Shown here piece by piece: positions 4,403-34,537 of a stretch of 38,035 nt of DNA; within the stretch, counting starts at the first letter, position 1; the number at the start of each line of letters is the position of its first letter. The notes under the pieces are model-generated. The model did not search any database. It saw nothing but the letters and a program-made list of their open reading frames with translations, and had not been told where the DNA came from. The DNA is from a virus. The translations under genes were made by a program, and so were the position numbers. The stretch is taken from IMG/VR virus record IMGVR_UViG_3300025301_000040, positions 1 through 38,035 of that record; one strand, 5' to 3'.

Positions 4403-5170
4403 ATGGCTGAATCAGGCGTTGGTAAGATTCGTATCTTCGATGACTTCGTTGGGTTCGAGGTTCCAGAAGGTAGTACGGCTGCACCCGCAACTGTTCCCTT
4501 CTTCACACCTGGTGGTCTACGAGTAGTTGGTCAAGGACTGGCTGAGACTGACTCTGGCATCAACGGTCTTGACGCAGATGGCCTCAATGGTGTCGTGCAG
4601 CTTCAGACAACCGATGAGGCAGACCATTCCGTAGGCTTCACTACGAGCAAATGCTTCGACATGGCGCTGAACGGTGGCATCATGATTGAAGCGCGTGTTC
4701 GATTCGATGACCTTGATACTAAGCGCGCCTACTTCGGGCTGACCGATGTAGTTACCGATGGCGTTGGTGTCATCAAGGGTGAGCAGATGTTTGGTACGGG
4801 CACGACCCTTACCCTCACGGCATCTGACCTCTGTGGGTTCTTCATTGGTTCTGAACTTACCGATGATGAGGACTGGCATGGTGTCTACAACGGTGGGACT
4901 ACCACAGGCGCAACGACCTCAACGGATGTTGACCTGAATGATGATGCCGTTGCTGGTGAGTTCCAGGTTCTGAAGCTCACGGTCAGTAACGATGGCACGG
5001 CACGCTGGTATATAGATGGAGTTCTGCTGCAGACGGTAACAGGTGCGGTTTCAACGACTACCGACCTTGCTGTACTGCTCATGATTGACGCCGTGGATAC
5101 AACCGCTGGTGGCGTGGTCATGGATGTGGACTACATTCTCATCGAGGCCAACCGTGACTGGACAGTCTAG
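4403..5170 (+). CDS. Jelly-roll (LamG/concanavalin-like) structural protein
   Basis: A 255-aa, almost all-beta protein. Residues about 88-115 (ALNGGIMIEARVRFDDL then KRAYFGLTDV) and about 190-225 (EFQVLKLTVSNDGTARWYIDG) have the alternating pattern of concanavalin-A-like/LamG domains, where the 'W-Y-I-D-G-x-x' strand is typical. Strong AAAGGAG site. Lying directly behind the capsid gene it could decorate the head or bind surface sugars. No signal peptide or catalytic residues are evident. The fold is inferred from strand patterns, and the role is a guess from position. Confidence 0.6.
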   Translation: MAESGVGKIRIFDDFVGFEVPEGSTAAPATVPFFTPGGLRVVGQGLAETDSGINGLDADGLNGVVQLQTTDEADHSVGFTTSKCFDMALNGGIMIEARVRFDDLDTKRAYFGLTDVVTDGVGVIKGEQMFGTGTTLTLTASDLCGFFIGSELTDDEDWHGVYNGGTTTGATTSTDVDLNDDAVAGEFQVLKLTVSNDGTARWYIDGVLLQTVTGAVSTTTDLAVLLMIDAVDTTAGGVVMDVDYILIEANRDWTV

Positions 5171-5182
5171 TAAGTGACTCAA

Positions 5183-5216
5183 TTCCCCTCTCTTCCCTTT
5201 AGGGAAGAGAGGGGAA
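5183..5216 (+). terminator. Strong 15-bp hairpin after the capsid cluster
   Basis: Perfect 15-bp stem (TTCCCCTCTCTTCCC / its complement) with a TTTA loop, starting 12 nt after the stop of the lectin-like gene. Only a weak T-run (GGTTTGG) follows, so termination may be partial. The usual purpose of such a site is to keep capsid mRNA more abundant than downstream messages. The AAGG at the 3' end of the stem also serves as the ribosome site of the next gene, so folding would hide it. Confidence 0.65.
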
Positions 5217-5228
5217 GGTTTGGTAGAT

Positions 5229-5693
5229 ATGGCTGGAGTAACTAACGTCGGTAAGTTACCTGTAGGCGAGCAAATTGACACGTTCTACGTGCCGGTCAGT
5301 GACGTGATGTCTGACGAACCTGCAACTTACTTACGTGAGTACAACACCCCCATGTACGACGGGATGTCAAGAGGACGATTCCAAGAGGTTCACGTCCTGC
5401 GTGACACCTACGTTGGTACGTGGTTCTACTACCTTGGGCCATCTCTACTTTTCACAGCGGAGGAGTTCCAGATTGTGGGAGGGTCTGTTCGAGACCATCG
5501 TCAGGATATTGAGACCGTTGCCTCAATCAGGGACTACGCTGACTGGATGCGCGATAGGAATGGTTTTCCGAAAGAGGTTGACCCGGCTGCAAGAACAGTC
5601 ACTCAGGAGAACTTCTTGATTGGGTTGGAGAATACCGAGAAAGCGCAACTGCACCAGAGTGTGCATGGACGCTATATAAAGGTGGACAGATGA
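5229..5693 (+). CDS. Hypothetical virion protein, possible head-tail connector
   Basis: A 154-aa protein I do not recognise. ATG at 5229 is preferred over a TTG at 5220 because AAGG (5215-5218) is 10 nt before it. Mixed alpha/beta and rich in aromatic residues (GTWFYYLGPSLLF at about 60-72), with no membrane segment or Cys motif. It lies between capsid and tail genes, where adaptor and connector proteins usually sit. Its stop overlaps the next ATG (ATGA). Because its ribosome site is inside the preceding hairpin, translation may be low. Confidence 0.6.
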   Translation: MAGVTNVGKLPVGEQIDTFYVPVSDVMSDEPATYLREYNTPMYDGMSRGRFQEVHVLRDTYVGTWFYYLGPSLLFTAEEFQIVGGSVRDHRQDIETVASIRDYADWMRDRNGFPKEVDPAARTVTQENFLIGLENTEKAQLHQSVHGRYIKVDR

Positions 5694-23035: not shown

Positions 23036-24634
23036 TTAGCCCTTCGACTCAATAACATAACTCAGCAGTCCCTCTATCGTCTGCCAGTCATCATCCTGCA
23101 TAGGGGACTCTACCTTTACCATCACCTCTGATGGATACACGCCATCTTTGGTGTCAAACCCAACGCAGATAGTGGCGTAGCGCAAGCCGCTTTCATAAAG
23201 CTGACGCGCTACCTCCCTGGTCGCATCCGGGTTATCAGGCGTGCCGTCGCAAATATGCACGAGCAAGACGTCATTGACCGTCTTAGCTTCCTGCTCAACG
23301 TAGAGGAGTGCCTCAGCGTCTGGTGTGAAGCCGCTCGATTTGATGTACTGGCCTTTTACAGCAAGATTACGGTCATTGTCGCCCGCTAGCTTATTACCAG
23401 CCTCAACCATACCAATAACAACGCCATGTTCTCGATGGTAGGTCATTACTGTCGCGTCGGTGAATAGTGCCGTTATCGCAGCAACGATATTCCACATCGT
23501 GTTCGCCCTGCCGTCGTGCATCGTGCTTGATGAGTTATCAACGAGCACGATGATTCTCGCTTGGTTGTGTTCGGGCGCTGCGAACACGCGAGTGTCGCCA
23601 TATCGCATACGGTAAATCTTCTTAGTGACTTTCCCATACTGACGGAGACGGTCAACAGACTGGCGCTTACCTTCGATATCTAACTTTACCCGCAACGCCT
23701 CCGACAGCGGATTCTCTACCTGCGCCGGAATAATCACGCGATAGTTATCTGGGGTAAAGATGGGAATGGGTACCTTGCGGCCACCCTTATCGTACTTCTC
23801 GCCATCCTGTTTGATTGAATCTAAGATAGCTGCGATTACATCGTTGTCAGCATCAGTGAGATAGTCGCTTAGCTTTTCCCCTTGGTCGCTGCCTTCGGGG
23901 CTATCACCATCAGGTTCATCGCTCTCGGAGTCATCAGTATCGGGGTCATCGCTAGTAACCTTGCTGTCCTGACTCTGACCGCCCTGCGATTCTCCCGTAT
24001 CGTCAGGTAAGTCATTCTCTGTATCAAGTTTGGCCTGTCTATCTTCAAACTCATGGATGAGTGCAGCATACTGTAACGCCGCTCGTACTCCTGCCACTTT
24101 ATCCTTTGACTGGACAGCCTCTTCGTAGGCTGGCAAAAATACCTTAGTCAGAACGTCAGCGCATTGAGTTGCCAGGGCTTCGTCGTTGATGCCATAAGCC
24201 CCTTTGTACTGAAGATTTATGACGGCTTCGTCATACCTGCCCTCGACAAGTCCCTGTAGTGCCGTGGCATAGCCTTGTGTAGGATGCTGTCCTGACATGT
24301 CTCTGCCATACCAGTCAGAAGCACGATGTTCGATGCGTTTGGTCTCGATGTAATCAAGTGAGTCACGGGTAGCATCATCGTCAATAACGCTATAAGGTAG
24401 CGTCAGCTTATCTATCCAAGACCAATGGCCCCATGCCGCATTGACTAATGACTGTTTCATCGACCACGTAGCCGAATCGGGCACGGAAATTGTCCCGTCA
24501 GCCATAGAAGGCGTGGCTTCTCTCCCGCCCTGTATTGTGCTATGGGCACCAGCAAGTATCCTTGAGATACCCGCTGCCGTTGCATAGTTACTTGGCCTAT
24601 CGAAGAAATCTAACTGGTCTTCGCTGTCCTGCAT
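23036..24634 (-). CDS. CobT-like VWA-domain protein
   Basis: A 532-aa protein. ATG 24634 is chosen because GGAGG is 5 nt before it; GTG 24658 would add 8 residues. Residues about 1-195 are helical, about 197-254 is a highly acidic Asp/Ser/Glu linker, and the C-terminus is a VWA domain with a complete MIDAS: D-x-S-x-S at 366-370, T437 (SGFTPD) and D463 (ICDG). Helix, acidic linker and VWA is the build of CobT and other partners of MoxR-type ATPases. The ATPase gene is directly upstream. The pair would act as a metal-dependent remodelling machine; its target is unknown. Confidence 0.8.
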   Translation of the reverse strand: MQDSEDQLDFFDRPSNYATAAGISRILAGAHSTIQGGREATPSMADGTISVPDSATWSMKQSLVNAAWGHWSWIDKLTLPYSVIDDDATRDSLDYIETKRIEHRASDWYGRDMSGQHPTQGYATALQGLVEGRYDEAVINLQYKGAYGINDEALATQCADVLTKVFLPAYEEAVQSKDKVAGVRAALQYAALIHEFEDRQAKLDTENDLPDDTGESQGGQSQDSKVTSDDPDTDDSESDEPDGDSPEGSDQGEKLSDYLTDADNDVIAAILDSIKQDGEKYDKGGRKVPIPIFTPDNYRVIIPAQVENPLSEALRVKLDIEGKRQSVDRLRQYGKVTKKIYRMRYGDTRVFAAPEHNQARIIVLVDNSSSTMHDGRANTMWNIVAAITALFTDATVMTYHREHGVVIGMVEAGNKLAGDNDRNLAVKGQYIKSSGFTPDAEALLYVEQEAKTVNDVLLVHICDGTPDNPDATREVARQLYESGLRYATICVGFDTKDGVYPSEVMVKVESPMQDDDWQTIEGLLSYVIESKG

Positions 24635-24647
24635 TGCATCCTCCATC

Positions 24648-25922
24648 TTAGTATTCACTCTCAGTTGGCATCGACGATGGAGCCAACGTGTTAGGTGCGA
24701 AGTGTGAGCGGGCCATATTGAGCACGCTATCTGCTACATCTACCGATGCCGTGAACTTAGGAATCAGTGAGTACCGCACCGCATCCAACGGCTCGAAGCC
24801 ATTAGCGATGGCCTGGCCCCACAGCTTCACGTCTCGTGAGCATACCCACGTATCTGCGCTACGCCTTAGCTCTACGACCAAGGCCATGCATCGGCGAGCC
24901 GTTTCCTCTGGCATATAGAGTTTCATCAACTGAGGTTCGTTTACCACGGTCTCGTTCAGCCTGAAGATATAGCCGAAGCGACGCATTACCGGCATTGGAA
25001 TCTTGTTAGACGTGTAGTTCTTGGCTGGCGGGTTATAGGACGCAACGTACCGGAAGTTTGCATCTACGCTGACGCTCCCTTCGGGTGACTCTACGAGGTC
25101 AAGGAACCTCCGTGACCCTTCGTCCATGACCTGGTGCAGTCGTGACAGCACGTCAGGGTCAGCGTTCGCCATCTCTTCGATGTGGTAGATGCCACCTTGC
25201 CTTGCCATCCTGGTCAACTTACCGTCATGCCATTCGACCAGCACGCTCGGGTCGGGCACCGGGTACATGCCGCCAACAAAGGCGTTGATGTCCATGCCAC
25301 GATGACATGCCTGAATCGCATAGGTGCCATTCCATGGTGCAGTGTCCGCAATCATGTCAATAATGGTGGACTTACCGTGTCCCGTGGGGCCTTCGACGCC
25401 GATTGGCACGGGCGGCTTAGCGTGTAGCGCCCTCTCGATGTCCTCGTACATCTTGTTACCAAAGGAAGTGAACAGGTCACGAGTAGGTTCACCCGCATCG
25501 GCATCGAATACGTGCTGCTGCACGGCTGCGATAGCTTCTGCATCGGGTGGTGATACGTTACTGATGACGTTGACCAGCCTCTGCTCAAGTTCTCGGCTGT
25601 TATCAACAGCGTTACCAACGACCATGTTCTGCTTCCCACCATGTCGGTGACGGTAATGCTGAGAGATGGCAAACATACTGGGGCCATCAAACTCTCGCCA
25701 GTCTATGGTGCATATCCATTTCCTGGTATTGGCATCGAAGATGACATTGTGCGAAAGCGGGTATATCGTCGCGCTTGAGTCTTCAGTAATGACAGGCTCA
25801 GTTACCGTGGGGTTAGCACACGTTGCACAGATGATGTTGCCATAGGAGAGTTGGGCATCTGTGGAGTATGGTGGAATCGCTCGGCCACACTTGCTGCAGT
25901 TAGTTTCAGTGATGATAAACAT
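24648..25922 (-). CDS. MoxR/CobS-type AAA+ ATPase with N-terminal zinc ribbon
   Basis: A 424-aa protein. The four-Cys ribbon is C9, C12, C32, C35, and a second Cys/His group (C71, H89, H91, H93) may bind another zinc. The AAA+ core has Walker A at 178-186 (GPTGHGKST), Walker B at 245-250 (IYHIEE), sensor 1 N297 (SYNPPA) and Arg candidates R314 and R315. This matches the AAA_5/MoxR-CobS group. ATG 25922 follows the previous stop directly. Its VWA partner lies 13 nt downstream, the standard arrangement of such pairs. Zinc ribbons are not typical of CobS, which is an unusual addition. Confidence 0.8.
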   Translation of the reverse strand: MFIITETNCSKCGRAIPPYSTDAQLSYGNIICATCANPTVTEPVITEDSSATIYPLSHNVIFDANTRKWICTIDWREFDGPSMFAISQHYRHRHGGKQNMVVGNAVDNSRELEQRLVNVISNVSPPDAEAIAAVQQHVFDADAGEPTRDLFTSFGNKMYEDIERALHAKPPVPIGVEGPTGHGKSTIIDMIADTAPWNGTYAIQACHRGMDINAFVGGMYPVPDPSVLVEWHDGKLTRMARQGGIYHIEEMANADPDVLSRLHQVMDEGSRRFLDLVESPEGSVSVDANFRYVASYNPPAKNYTSNKIPMPVMRRFGYIFRLNETVVNEPQLMKLYMPEETARRCMALVVELRRSADTWVCSRDVKLWGQAIANGFEPLDAVRYSLIPKFTASVDVADSVLNMARSHFAPNTLAPSSMPTESEY

Positions 25923-30107: not shown

Positions 30108-30317
30108 ATGTATCACATGCCCGTAAGCATCACGGCGACCGATGATGGAGCCGAAGTAACACTACCTGGCATAAAGGGATTGCGTGGATGGACACCAGCA
30201 ACTAAGACCATGCTGAGGCATCGCCTTAGAGGCATGTTGGGTGGGCAGCAAGAGGTCGTGGTAACAAGCGTAATCGCCAACGATTCGCCCGACTTAGTGT
30301 TTAGGGTGAGTGGGTAA
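30108..30317 (+). CDS. Small hypothetical protein, 69 aa
   Basis: ATG 30108 behind GGGGGAGG. A second Met is at codon 4. Beta then helix (VSITATDDGAEVTLPGIKG; TPATKTMLRHRLRGMLGG). Its TAA overlaps the next ATG. First gene of a short rightward unit lying opposite to both neighbours. Not recognised. Confidence 0.55.
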   Translation: MYHMPVSITATDDGAEVTLPGIKGLRGWTPATKTMLRHRLRGMLGGQQEVVVTSVIANDSPDLVFRVSG

Positions 30318-30691
30318 TGACTATCGGTCGTCCCTTTACACCCGGTATCTCCGGTAATCCTGGTGGACGCCCTAGGAGTATCGGCAGACTCGCACGGGAA
30401 GCGACCGATAACGGTGTCGATATCGTCGCCTTCTTCGTGTCAGTGTTTCACGGGGAAATGCCAACCGTTGGCGATGATGTCGTCTTACACGAACGCAAGA
30501 TAACGTTAGATGACCGTATCGAAGCCGCTCGCTGGCTTACTGACCGTGGATGGGGTAAGGCTGCGCTCAACGTATCTGTCGAGAATGACGAAATGGACTT
30601 ACCCCTGACTAAGTACAGCGTCGAAGAACTCTTAGCCATGCGCAACACGCTAGTTATGCTGACAGAGGGAGAGTTCAGCGAAAAGGCGTAA
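30317..30691 (+). CDS. DUF5681-like protein, small terminase candidate
   Basis: A 124-aa protein with the N-terminal motif GRPFTPGISGNPGGRPRS (4-21), typical of DUF5681 proteins. The remainder is helical (ITLDDRIEAARWLTDRGWGKA), as seen in small terminase-like or DNA-binding members. DUF5681 genes often sit near large terminases; here TerL begins 2.3 kb downstream. No other TerS candidate is visible. If it is the small subunit, it would recognise the packaging site. The stop is part of a 7-nt tandem repeat. Confidence 0.6.
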   Translation: MTIGRPFTPGISGNPGGRPRSIGRLAREATDNGVDIVAFFVSVFHGEMPTVGDDVVLHERKITLDDRIEAARWLTDRGWGKAALNVSVENDEMDLPLTKYSVEELLAMRNTLVMLTEGEFSEKA

Positions 30692-30706
30692 GGCGTAAGG
30701 CGTAAG
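30683..30706 (+). repeat. 7-nt tandem repeat (AAGGCGT)n
   Basis: Three full copies of AAGGCGT and part of a fourth, overlapping the stop codon of the DUF5681-like gene. It is the first part of a stretch with many GTAAG words that reaches to about 31446. Confidence 0.65.
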
Positions 30707-30797
30707 TCACGCGAGTAAGTGTAAGGACTAAAACTTAGTTAACTACCCCTATCCCATCACAAGGACGGGCTAAGTAGGCGGCTGCGTAAGGTCGCGG

Positions 30798-30843: not shown

Positions 30844-30868
30844 TTCGCTTAGACACCCTCATAGGGTG

Positions 30869-31202
30869 GCAACAGTCGTAACTACGTCGCCTAGTAGTTT
30901 ATCTGACCTTCGATTCCTGACCTAGCACTAAGCCAGGAGCGGCACCGTTTGTAAGAATCCCAGACTTTCGGTAAGTCGGTATCAACACCGTCTGACTTAG
31001 CGCTGAGATACGCTTCGTGTAAATCGCGTAAGGCTACGATAGCCTTGTATACTAACTCGTTATGATAGGACGCATTGTCACGAATCGCCTGACTTAGTCC
31101 GTCTGACATTTGCGTAGCCTGAGCCCTATCGCCAATGTGTAGCGTAGATATGATGTTCACCCCGTAAGTAGTTGAAGCTTACGACGTGGCAACGACTGTT
31201 GC
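30869..31202 (-). repeat. Inverted repeat enclosing small gene 1
   Basis: Arms at 30869-30890 and 31181-31202 (22 nt each, 18 of 22 identical as DNA inverted repeat; in leftward RNA 20 of 22 pair, with two G-U and two mismatches). They sit 1 nt after the stop end and 20 nt before the start of the 30891-31160 gene. This is the weakest of the three enclosing repeats. The right arm abuts the left arm of the next pair. Confidence 0.55.
30891..31160 (-). CDS. Hypothetical protein, 89 aa (enclosed gene 1)
   Basis: GTG 31160; no clear ribosome site (CTTACGGG just before). Helical throughout: ATQMSDGLSQAIRDN, AIVALRDLHEAYLSAK, then KRCRSWLSARSG near the end. Looks like a small helical bundle. Not recognised. 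Lies between arms of an inverted repeat and shares the leader word CTACTTACGG with the next gene. Confidence 0.5.
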   Translation of the reverse strand: MNIISTLHIGDRAQATQMSDGLSQAIRDNASYHNELVYKAIVALRDLHEAYLSAKSDGVDTDLPKVWDSYKRCRSWLSARSGIEGQINY

Positions 31203-31479
31203 TTAGACACCCTCAGAATGGCGCGAGCCCCGTAAGTAGTTAGGCCGTAACTAGGTAGCGTTCACGAACGCTGTCAGGAATAATGTTGAACGCCTTCTGT
31301 AACTTCTCGCGACATTGGCGATGTACTCGCATGTTGTGTAAGTCGCCGTTGGGTAACTCGTAAGCCCAAAAGGCCGTAAGTCGCCCGTAATGGCCACATA
31401 CTGGACATTCCTTCTTATTCATGGTTAGTAAGTCTCTCCGTAAGTAGATTGACTCGCACCATTCTGAGGATGCCTAAGC
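31201..31479 (-). repeat. 29-bp inverted repeat enclosing small gene 2
   Basis: Arms 31201-31229 and 31451-31479. DNA identity is 25 of 29; all four differences are transitions that give G-U pairs in RNA of the leftward strand, so that RNA can form an unbroken 29-bp stem. In plus-strand RNA they would be A-C mismatches. The loop contains the whole 31240-31422 gene and its ribosome site. Confidence 0.8.
31240..31422 (-). CDS. Small zinc-finger-like protein, 60 aa (enclosed gene 2)
   Basis: ATG 31422. Starts MNKKECPVCGHYGRLTAFWA: C6 and C9 with H11, and a second group H34, C37 (VHRQCRE) make a plausible four-ligand zinc site. The rest is helical (EKLQKAFNIIPDSVRERYL). Ribosome site is weak (GGAG about 13 nt before). 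Small nucleic-acid binder is the likely role, unproven. Confidence 0.55.
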   Translation of the reverse strand: MNKKECPVCGHYGRLTAFWAYELPNGDLHNMRVHRQCREKLQKAFNIIPDSVRERYLVTA

Positions 31480-31512
31480 GATGCTGATAACAGCGGGTTA
31501 GCAGGTTTTGAT

Positions 31513-31986
31513 GATGCTTAGCTTCTAGGAACACCGGAAGCGCCACTAAGTGTTACTTGGTTAGCTTGGCGAGAATCGCGTCTAGCTTAGCGTCTGTCTC
31601 AGCTTTGCCAGCGTCAACCTTAGCCTCTAAGGCATCCATTCGCGATTCGGCGACCTTCTTGGGCTTCGCAGGTTTCTTAGGAGCAACGACGTAAATTCTA
31701 ACGTCGTTGTCATCGGTACCAGACTGCCAGAAATTGCAGACTGTACCTTCGGGAACGCCTTTACCAGTTTTGCCCTCTAAGGCGTGCTTAGGAGACAGCA
31801 TTTGCTGGATGGTGCGCCCACCCTTAGGCGAAACGCTGTATCCAGCTTCGGCTTGCTTCGCGGGGCTCATTGCCCTGACCTTAGCGAAGGCGTCCTTTAT
31901 CGTTTTGACCGCTTTGGCTTCTAGGGTTCGGTATTGCATTTAGCTTTCGCTTTCCGCGCCTCCGATGCTCCTAGAAACTAAGCATC
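31513..31986 (-). repeat. 31-bp inverted repeat enclosing small gene 3
   Basis: Arms 31513-31543 and 31956-31986. DNA identity 27 of 31; the four differences again become G-U pairs only in leftward RNA, giving 31 of 31 paired. The right arm can also fold on itself (GATGCT..TAG/CTA AGCATC). The gene 31553-31939 lies 10 nt from one arm and 16 nt from the other. Confidence 0.8.
31553..31939 (-). CDS. Basic protein with C-terminal coiled coil, 128 aa (enclosed gene 3)
   Basis: ATG 31939; GGAAA 10 nt before. Lys/Ala-rich. Residues 1-30 helix (KAVKTIKDAFAKVRAMSPAK), 34-80 mixed with GYSVSPKGGRTIQ and TVCNFWQSGTDDNDVRIYV. Then comes a basic Pro/Lys hinge (APKKPAKPKK), and the last 30 residues are a heptad-like coiled coil (MDALEAKVDAGKAETDAKLD). 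Nucleic-acid binding with oligomerisation is plausible. No family recognised. First gene of the leftward trio. Confidence 0.55.
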   Translation of the reverse strand: MQYRTLEAKAVKTIKDAFAKVRAMSPAKQAEAGYSVSPKGGRTIQQMLSPKHALEGKTGKGVPEGTVCNFWQSGTDDNDVRIYVVAPKKPAKPKKVAESRMDALEAKVDAGKAETDAKLDAILAKLTK

Positions 31987-32049
31987 CCTGCGGGTTATTC
32001 CGTAGCTGCGTTGAGCGCCTCAGGAGCGTTACTCGACATCCTGCGCGCT

Positions 32050-32061
32050 ACTCCCGGGAGT
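32050..32061. promoter_or_regulatory. 12-nt palindrome
   Basis: ACTCCCGGGAGT is a perfect palindrome, followed at once by the hairpin GTGAT..ATCAC (32060-32083) with an inner CCTC/GAGG. Possible operator or structural element. Confidence 0.35.
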
Positions 32062-32206
32062 GATGGCCCTCTTGAGGAATCACCTTAGTCCGTCACCGGG
32101 TCGCGAGTCCTACTGGCGTCTGTTTCACCGCCGTTGTAAATGTGCTGTAGAGGCGGGTGGCCTCAACGGGCAATACCTTACAGCAATGCACTTACGTATG
32201 GCAATA

Positions 32207-32241
32207 ACTTACGCCTAACAGAGGCGACTTACGCCTACCAG
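32207..32241 (+). repeat. Direct repeat ACTTACGCCTA-N-CAG, two copies
   Basis: Copies at 32207-32221 and 32227-32241 (14 of 15 identical, period 20). Two further CTTAC words lie at 32177 and 32191, so four CTTAC sites occur in 56 nt. Iteron-like arrangement ahead of a palindrome and possible promoter. Confidence 0.5.
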
Positions 32242-32297
32242 CGAACGCACCGAATGAGGCAAGCGCGCCCACCCCCGGCGGTACCATCTGGCGTATC

Positions 32298-32334
32298 TGA
32301 TACGTATCAACTAAGAAAATATCCGCGGCATAAT
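32298..32334 (+). promoter_or_regulatory. Palindrome plus possible promoter
   Basis: TGATACGTATCA (32298-32309) is a perfect 12-nt palindrome. Twenty nt later is CATAAT (32329-32334), 5 of 6 to a -10, behind an A-rich spacer; the palindrome occupies the -35 position. It would drive the structured leader and the late genes and could be controlled by a dimeric protein. Confidence 0.35.
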
Positions 32335-32629
32335 TTCAGAGGATTTGTGTAGGAGCAGGAGCAATCTCATTTACCGTCTGAGGGAGCCAGCGATGCCTAG
32401 AAGGGGAGGGGGTTTCTTTCGGGAGGAAATGGAAACCCGACCCCCTCCGTAGGTTCCCCCGCGGGGTGGAGCCGAAATTGAACCCCACCGGCGTCGTAGA
32501 CATGCTTCCTTCGTCCGGCTGCAATGCCGGAGGTGGCTTCACTTCCTCGGAGGAGCCCAGGAATGCCTGCGTGGGTATGGGGTTATGAGTAAGTCGGGGT
32601 TTTTACCTTGTAGCGATGGCTACGTATGA

Positions 32630-32674
32630 GGGGGAGAAAAGAAAAGGGCCGCTACGTGGACTGTTGCAGCGGCC
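32630..32674 (-). terminator. Leftward Rho-independent-type terminator
   Basis: GGCCGCT (32647-32653) and AGCGGCC (32668-32674) make a perfect 7-bp GC-rich stem. On the leftward strand it is followed by CTTTTCTTTTCT. No leftward gene lies upstream, so a short leftward RNA starting near 32740 is possible. Confidence 0.5.
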
Positions 32675-32742
32675 ATTCCGTCCTCGGTCACCAGTTTCGG
32701 CTGTCCCTAGCGGCCTCCCCGCGTCCGTTCAGCCGAACAGGG
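32632..32742 (-). ncRNA. Candidate small leftward RNA (about 105 nt)
   Basis: Between a possible leftward -10 (TATAGT on the minus strand, 32745-32750) and the leftward terminator are two strong stems: CAGCCGAA/TTCGGCTG (32696-32737) and GGCCGCT/AGCGGCC. TCCCT (32704-32708) can also pair with AGGGA (32739-32743), giving a pseudoknot order of strands. No protein frame fits. Transcription is inferred; no good -35 was found. Confidence 0.3.
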
Positions 32743-33001
32743 AGGACTATACACTTATTTTCTAAGCGGTAGTAGTGGGATTGACGGCTGTTTTGGTGCT
32801 GTGGCGCTGGGGGTTGAGTAAGAGAGACGTACGGGGTGGGGGTCTCTCATTACGATACCGATGATATATCCACAATTTAGGGAGGGTATGGACAATGCTT
32901 ACTGCGCGGCGCACACGCAGAGAGGTAATACCCCCAGCGACCACAGTAGTGCTACTCTACACCACAGCCGAGTGTACTGAGAAGAGGAGTTACCACCGCA
33001 T

Positions 33002-34537
33002 ATGGTTACTCAAGTCACGATGACTGACCTTGAGCGTGAGTTAGCCAAGCGCCGATTCACTGAATTCCTCACCTTCGTCAAGATTCAGAACACCGACAGT
33101 GAAGGTGGAGCCCAGATGGCCTTCGAGAAGTGGCCACACCTTCTTACTTCCGCAGCGATTCTTGAGAAACACCGCCGCGTTATCTTTCTCAAGGCCAGGC
33201 AGATTGGTATCACCTGGCTTATGGCGGCATATGCACTCTGGACGGCTACTTACCACGACGGCGCCGTTGTTCTTGTCCTCTCAAAGGGGGAGAACGAGGC
33301 GAAAACCTTCCTCAGGCGCATCAAATTCATCCACTCCCGTCTCCCTGAGTCACTTCAAGGTGTGGTTGTTATCGACTCGACGACTGAATTCGGGTTCAAG
33401 AGTGAATCCAAGATAACGGCACTGCCCGCAACCGAAGATGCAGGTCGTTCAGAGACCGCAACCCTCGTGTTGCAAGACGAAGCGGACTACCACAAACACC
33501 TTGAGTCCAACTTCGCGGCTGTCAGACCTACTGTTGATGCGGGTGGGCAGCACATCATGGCTTCTACGTCCAATTACGAGACCATCGACAGCTTCTTCAA
33601 GCGGATGTACCGCCGTGCGAACACCTTAGAGGGTACGGAAAGCAACCACGACGGTGAATCGCGTTACGTCCGGGTGTTCTTTGGGTGGGATGTCCGTCCT
33701 GGGCGTGATACGGAGTGGCGTTCTGAAGTTACGGCAGATTACGACCAAGACCAGAGGGACAAAGAGTACCCAGAGTCAGAAGAACAGGCACTCGCTCCAC
33801 CTCAGGCCATCGCTGCCTTCGATTCCGCTGCTCTCGCCAGCATGTTGGAGAACGCCGAGGAGCCATTGGTGGTAAAAGGGTTACCGCCTGATGCTCGCAT
33901 GTGGCGAAAGTTCGTTATCGGCGACAAGTACACCGCATTCACCGATACTTCCCACGGAACGGGGAAGGACTTCGCCGTCACCGTTGTCTATAACTGTGTT
34001 ACGGGACTTATCGTTGCAGATATCAAGTCCAATACCCTCGACCCTGACGCATTGGCCCTTCAGTCAGTCAAGTTACTCGGTGAATATGACAATCCCATCT
34101 GGGGTATCGAGGACAACGACTGGGGTATACAAACCATCAAAAAGGCTCAACAGTTGGGTTATAGGCAGTTGTACCATAGGCCCATAAGTACCCAGAATCA
34201 GAATAAGAAGGGTCAAGTTGGCTGGCATACGAGTGAGTCCAGCCGCAATAGCCTCTACGGTGACTTACAACAGGCAGTCAAAGACCGTTCAGTAACGATG
34301 TTCGCCAGAGATGGCATCGCTCAGTTCACCCAGACCATCAAGAATCCCGACAAGAATGGACGAGTAGAGGCTATCGAGGGTGGACATGACGACTACCCAC
34401 TTGCCGTTGGCGGGGCATTACAGATGATTAGGTACGCGCGTAAGGCAAGAGCCCACTCATTCACACCAGCAGGTGACTTCAGTTCCATGGGAGCTTTTCT
34501 TACCGAGCGCGTTGTTCAGACGAAAAGTAGGTGGTAG
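33002..34537 (+). CDS. terL: Terminase large subunit
   Basis: A 511-aa packaging ATPase-nuclease, normal length. Walker A variant KARQIGIT (64-71), Walker B and catalytic acid LVLQDEAD (155-162), coupling motif near STSN (188-191). The C-terminal RNase H-like nuclease has D315 (TDTSHGTGKD), E370-D371 (GIEDNDWG) and D463-D464 (HDDYP). AGAGGAG lies 12 nt before ATG 33002; ATG 33020 is an alternative. First gene of the late block, followed by the portal 9 nt later. It drives DNA into the prohead and cuts it; a circularly permuted genome would fit headful-type packaging. Confidence 0.9.
   Translation: MVTQVTMTDLERELAKRRFTEFLTFVKIQNTDSEGGAQMAFEKWPHLLTSAAILEKHRRVIFLKARQIGITWLMAAYALWTATYHDGAVVLVLSKGENEAKTFLRRIKFIHSRLPESLQGVVVIDSTTEFGFKSESKITALPATEDAGRSETATLVLQDEADYHKHLESNFAAVRPTVDAGGQHIMASTSNYETIDSFFKRMYRRANTLEGTESNHDGESRYVRVFFGWDVRPGRDTEWRSEVTADYDQDQRDKEYPESEEQALAPPQAIAAFDSAALASMLENAEEPLVVKGLPPDARMWRKFVIGDKYTAFTDTSHGTGKDFAVTVVYNCVTGLIVADIKSNTLDPDALALQSVKLLGEYDNPIWGIEDNDWGIQTIKKAQQLGYRQLYHRPISTQNQNKKGQVGWHTSESSRNSLYGDLQQAVKDRSVTMFARDGIAQFTQTIKNPDKNGRVEAIEGGHDDYPLAVGGALQMIRYARKARAHSFTPAGDFSSMGAFLTERVVQTKSRW

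Follow-up and report, generated by a model that had tools for sequence, protein, structure and literature searches.

Why should neighbouring small genes of a virus each lie between two stretches of sequence able to pair with one another, and at what level would such pairing act? We addressed this question in an IMG/VR record of 38,035 bases from an uncultured virus, probably a phage, analysed over its whole length (hereafter the window). Three leftward genes form an island on the minus strand of this DNA, between a small-terminase-like gene and a large terminase gene (terL) that are both on the plus strand (Table 1). A previous examination of the letters alone (hereafter the sequence-only reading) had proposed that each of the three is enclosed by its own inverted repeat, pairing best in leftward RNA.

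A leftward island between the terminase genes

The large terminase has 78 related viral loci, and in 25 related contigs, several of which are near-copies of one another, a homologue of the small-terminase-like gene (terS) immediately precedes terL. Because the gap between the two genes spans 26-340 nt in these 25 loci against 2,310 nt in the window, the island would most simply be an addition in this lineage. It was seen in one genome, the near-identical partner contig (L004) starting at window position 32464 and not covering the island. A viral scan with the portal-like protein matched only this contig and the nearest relative (L005, terminase 54%), which carries HNH-like genes in the matching area and no gene-enclosing stems of this sort. 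Among cellular genome bins, a single terminase relative was detected, at 41% identity, in a Chloroflexi MAG.

The annotated frames of genes 1 and 3, which share a strand, carry a coding signal, with scores of 0.113 (top of six frames) and 0.22 (against 0.026 or less in the other frames), respectively. The short gene 2 has a weak coding score (0.037, not the top of its six frames); its CxxC...HxxC pattern and moderately confident predicted fold (pLDDT 78.9, weakly similar to ribosomal zinc folds of the L24e type) point to a genuine small zinc protein. The model of gene 3 was poor (pLDDT 52), and the structure models of both genes were uninformative. None of the three proteins had a homologue in IMG/VR, INPHARED, Pfam, PHROGs, NCBIfam or PADLOC, and two of them had no PDB match; relatives of the island may exist outside these collections. 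A consensus scan recognised neither promoter nor terminator at the island.

Several other features of the window were recorded. Between the island and terL, no convincing gene was recognised over ~1 kb (32000-33000), a stretch that holds several short inverted repeats and gave no Rfam or tRNA match. The flanks of the island (30684-30710 and 32204-32236) carry inverted copies of a AGGCGTAAGTC-like sequence, statistically weak, which could possibly be its ends; near the first of them, a three-fold GGCGTAA repeat spans the terS stop codon. The 7-mer GACTTAC/GTAAGTC is the most over-represented of the window (23 seen, 4 under a first-order expectation), with part of its copies clustered within or close to the island. 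Elsewhere, a perfect 16-bp hairpin (TTCCCCTCTCTTCCCT/AGGGAAGAGAGGGGAA, 2-nt loop) lies at 5183-5216 after the gene at 4403-5170, and on the minus strand at 23036-25922 an AAA_5 ATPase gene stands beside a 540-aa gene that by eye resembles a von Willebrand-type partner (no Pfam match), which would make the two a CobS/CobT- or MoxR-like pair.

Table 1. Features of the island and its surroundings, in window coordinates
Feature	Position	Strand	Remarks
Small-terminase-like gene	30317..30691	+	Left of island; weak DUF5681 match
Outer 3' arm	30845..30861	-	Pairs with 31465-31481; second copy of gene 2 3'-arm end
Gene 1 3' arm	30869..30890	-	Immediately past stop codon
Gene 1	30891..31160	-	89 aa, GTG start
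Gene 1 5' arm	31181..31202	-	Abuts gene 2 3' arm
Gene 2 3' arm	31201..31229	-	Last 15 nt = TGAGGGTGTCTAAGC, recurring at 30847-30861
Gene 2	31240..31422	-	60 aa; CxxC...HxxC, small zinc-binding-type protein
Gene 2 5' arm	31451..31479	-	Pairs 29/29 with 31201-31229
Gene 3 3' arm	31513..31543	-	Partner of 31956-31986
Gene 3	31553..31939	-	128 aa, lysine/alanine-rich
AGC-GAAA-GCU mini-hairpin	31942..31951	-	Between gene 3 GGAGG and AUG; in MFE and centroid structures
Gene 3 5' arm	31956..31986	-	Pairs 31/31 with 31513-31543; holds GGAGG (31963-31959)
Large terminase gene	33002..34537	+	Right of island; PHROG terminase large subunit, E 2e-19

Stems around genes 2 and 3 and their strand bias

The two strong arm pairs were found exactly where the sequence-only reading had placed them. 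In minus-strand RNA, the gene 2 stem comprises 25 Watson-Crick and 4 G-U pairs and the gene 3 stem 27 Watson-Crick and 4 G-U pairs, with no mismatch in either. In a strand-specific, ungapped scan (loops of at least 60 nt, spans up to 1000 nt), they were the top two stems of the window, scoring 67 for gene 2 and 71 for gene 3, the next best (47.5) being the plus-strand reading of the gene 2 arms. Among the best scores of 100 whole-window Markov shuffles, the median was 37.5 and the highest 49.5, giving extrapolated p values of ~3e-6 (gene 2) and ~7e-7 (gene 3); the strong stems thus far exceed their shuffled controls, as the sequence-only reading had expected of minus-strand folding.

Folded as minus-strand RNA with their arms, the units reached z scores of -6.6 (gene 2) and -5.9 (gene 3). 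Gene interiors alone behaved like shuffles (-0.4 to -1.1; -0.5 for gene 2 and -1.1 for gene 3), which locates the signal in the arms and led us to reject the units as structured non-coding RNAs. A partition function of the whole island forms both strong stems at a probability of ~1 (~1.0 for gene 3 except its two innermost pairs), save about six outer gene 2 pairs that exchange with an outer helix described below. From stop codon to 3' arm, the distance is 0 nt in gene 1, 10 nt in gene 2 and 9 nt in gene 3. Exact-pattern scans of the arm sequences with G-U ambiguity gave no match in IMG/VR, and no known RNA family was matched.

All eight differences between paired arms, four in each strong pair, are transitions giving G-U in minus-strand RNA and A.C in plus-strand RNA. 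Predicted duplex energies are -54.7 (gene 2) and -57.0 kcal/mol (gene 3) for the minus strand against -39.7 and -40.4 kcal/mol for the plus strand, i.e. minus-strand duplexes more stable by ~15-17 kcal/mol. The strand-specific argument against random decay therefore holds: the chance of such an outcome in 8/8 cases, either strand being allowed, is ~3e-4 to 3e-3, assuming neutral decay with transitions at 67-90% of changes and leaving post hoc choice uncorrected. What the argument supports is pairing on the minus strand; it is not unique to RNA, since G.T pairs as well as G-U, so that a hairpin of minus single-stranded DNA (ssDNA), an option missing from the sequence-only reading, fits equally and the two are inseparable from sequence alone. 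We infer that the stems act in RNA.

The gene 1 unit, a possible outer helix and the ribosome sites

The stem of gene 1 (30869-30890/31181-31202) comprises 18 Watson-Crick pairs, 2 G-U pairs and 2 mismatches, and both strands are about equally stable, with no strand bias. With a score of 36, it does not stand out across the window; among shuffles restricted to the gene-1 flanks, 1 of 2000 matched it. The weaker third pair announced by the sequence-only reading is thus present, with a significance that is local and not window-wide. Enclosure of each gene by its own stem is consequently firm for genes 2 and 3, the only two independent strong stems (n = 2), and probable for gene 1.

A further helix, absent from the sequence-only reading, pairs 30845-30861 with 31465-31481 (15 Watson-Crick and 2 G-U pairs; equalled in 0 of 2000 local shuffles) and can enclose genes 1 and 2 together. 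On the minus strand, TGAGGGTGTCTAAGC has exactly two sites, 31201-31215 and 30847-30861, forming a 15-bp direct repeat that flanks the gene 1 unit, and the second copy lengthens the pairing with the gene 2 5' arm by two bases. In the whole-island fold, the first 8 pairs of the outer helix have probabilities of 0.5-0.97, and the outer pairs of the gene 2 5' arm favour the second copy, suggesting that the outer helix holds genes 1 and 2. To judge from this repeat, the gene 1 unit looks like an insertion into the gene 2 3' arm, accompanied by a 15-bp duplication resembling a target-site duplication; without it, the gene 2 stem would have 31 pairs, equal to that of gene 3. A second minus-strand sequence, AACTACTTACGGGG, occurs exactly before gene 1 (31160-31173) and after gene 2 (31228-31241), with an 86% version before gene 2 (31436-31449).

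The units differ in their ribosome sites. The GGAGG of gene 3 is fully paired inside the 5' arm, with a predicted accessibility of zero in the whole-island fold; once folded, the adjacent mini-hairpin reduces the GGAGG-AUG spacing from 19 to ~9 nt and may set the spacing of this gene. The GGAG of gene 2 (31439-31436) sits in the loop, 11 nt away from the stem, and gene 1 has no clear Shine-Dalgarno sequence. Timing of translation by a hidden ribosome site, as formerly suggested for the units, accordingly fits gene 3 and fails for gene 2, and a ribosome-binding site within a long-range helix is not a property of the whole set.

Proposed RNA processing, its alternatives and known systems

Most likely, the units are per-gene RNA domains under selection on the leftward mRNA, their stems being of an RNase III-type processing kind. 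A lineage-specific block of small leftward genes would have been gained between the terminase genes. In the leftward mRNA, the two flanks of each gene would form a long helix, shutting off the stretch from before its start codon to just past its stop. With 29-31 unbroken pairs, the two strong stems should suit RNase III-type enzymes, whose cuts would divide the transcript into mRNAs of one gene each, their ends base-paired. By burying GGAGG, the closing stem of gene 3 would leave its mRNA translatable only while nascent or after cutting; gene 3 could use processing and gating, gene 2 processing or end protection only. Unrelated arm sequences within a shared architecture are what would be expected if pairing, not sequence, is kept. 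We consider an RNA-level function of any kind somewhat probable, and assign a probability of about 0.4 to the view that the stems mainly serve RNA-level processing or end closure. More tentative is the complete scheme: each gene would make up a closed RNA domain by itself, further units would come to be nested by inserting into the arm of a neighbour, and one transcript would yield separately controlled single-gene mRNAs, as for rRNA.

If the main role were translational gating, the 3' flank would fold onto the 5' flank and mask the ribosome site once the mRNA is complete, restricting protein synthesis to the period of transcription or to 3'-trimmed molecules. The paired GGAGG of gene 3 fits this, and there are precedents. 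In hok and AapA mRNAs, the 5' and 3' flanks of one message pair, can hide the ribosome site and silence the full-length form (PMC6733600); in icaR of Staphylococcus aureus, the 3' UTR pairs with the Shine-Dalgarno region, blocking the ribosome site and creating an RNase III site (PMC3868564). However, icaR is a single gene with a short UCCCCUG motif, whereas long stems here close whole genes repeatedly, and hok and AapA likewise lack the uninterrupted 29-31 pairs around several genes in a row. Nor were the hydrophobic toxin and antisense RNA of type I toxin-antitoxin systems observed, inspection by eye revealing no hydrophobic toxin-like segment in the three proteins, no antisense RNA being known and no Rfam match being obtained. 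As the ribosome sites of genes 1 and 2 leave the common layout unexplained, we hold gating unlikely as the main role.

Slightly less probable still is that each gene forms a small mobile DNA unit with terminal inverted repeats, the arms being recombination ends and not RNA structures. The absence of the island from the 25 related terS-terL loci and the direct repeat around the gene 1 unit, whose empty site would give a 31-bp stem, lend some support to such units, one of the options in the sequence-only reading. Yet arm sequences are unrelated among the three apart from GCTTAG, unlike the shared terminal sequences of a transposon or cassette; units 2 and 3 have no direct repeats around them, no unit carries a transposase or recombinase, and double-stranded DNA ends would not need differences that keep minus-strand pairing in 8/8 cases. 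An integron cassette array does not fit, as attC would follow each gene within one intergenic region and the paired arms lie here on opposite sides of a gene. Packaging signals often sit near terminase genes, and hairpins of minus-strand ssDNA serving replication, packaging or ssDNA recombination would suit the site of the island while producing the same strand bias through G.T wobble; but arms that match gene limits, one set per gene, are not what a replication or packaging signal would require, and we judge this explanation improbable. We rate just as low the idea of recent inverted duplications under neutral decay, with the G-U pattern due to coincidence or transcription-linked mutation bias. 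Only eight differences are available, and the chance calculated above applies if transitions dominate; against this, none of the eight is a transversion and two separate pairs both track gene limits. Moreover, the minus strand is not keto-rich at the island (keto fraction 0.475, no excess), so that simple C>T/A>G drift, and with it a strong keto-type mutation bias, is not visible in the composition.

Processing of this kind has partial parallels. The early mRNA of phage T7 is an operon transcript cut by RNase III into smaller mRNAs, at sites that are local hairpins between genes; the cutting is alike, but T7 has no gene-enclosing stem above a score of 38 in the same scan, and the best stem of marine phage HTVC010P likewise scores 38 or less. 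Phage morons, described with a promoter and a local terminator, share with the island small foreign-looking genes in opposite orientation among conserved late genes, but the island has closing stems in place of any recognised promoter or terminator. A further likeness is with precursors of bacterial rRNA, whose stems are established to hold RNase III sites, and with bacterial and archaeal 16S/23S processing stems generally, in which, as predicted here, inverted repeats on either side of a unit pair over a long distance, so that every unit of a shared transcript sits in a loop (PMC7038931). Their long, near-unbroken flank duplex is found again around genes 2 and 3 and more weakly around gene 1, although our units are protein-coding viral genes without bulge-helix-bulge, and their cleavage is a prediction.

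No comparable unique gene-enclosing stem occurred in ~0.87 Mb of related sequence. High stem scores in two contigs came from dispersed multi-copy palindromic repeats, not unique gene-closing stems: in L048, long repeats (GGCCCCCGACGGTGTCGGGGTACTCCGG...) in both orientations upstream of terL (229-358, 1514-1577, 2025-2073 and 4862-4908), and in L076, four copies of the GGAAATAAATCTATTTCC palindrome just upstream of terL (5070-5582). Another 326 kb of related viral contigs did not contain the architecture of the island. Long-range closing stems are already known from the precursors of rRNA and from a small number of regulated mRNAs in bacteria; a limited search of the open-access literature, weak evidence for novelty, found neither a matching phage system nor any account of consecutive protein genes that are each so closed. 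If the processing reading is true, such closure would offer a phage a compact way to add a gene with its own RNA-level control, and strand-biased G-U pairs in gene-enclosing inverted repeats would provide a searchable pattern for other genomes.
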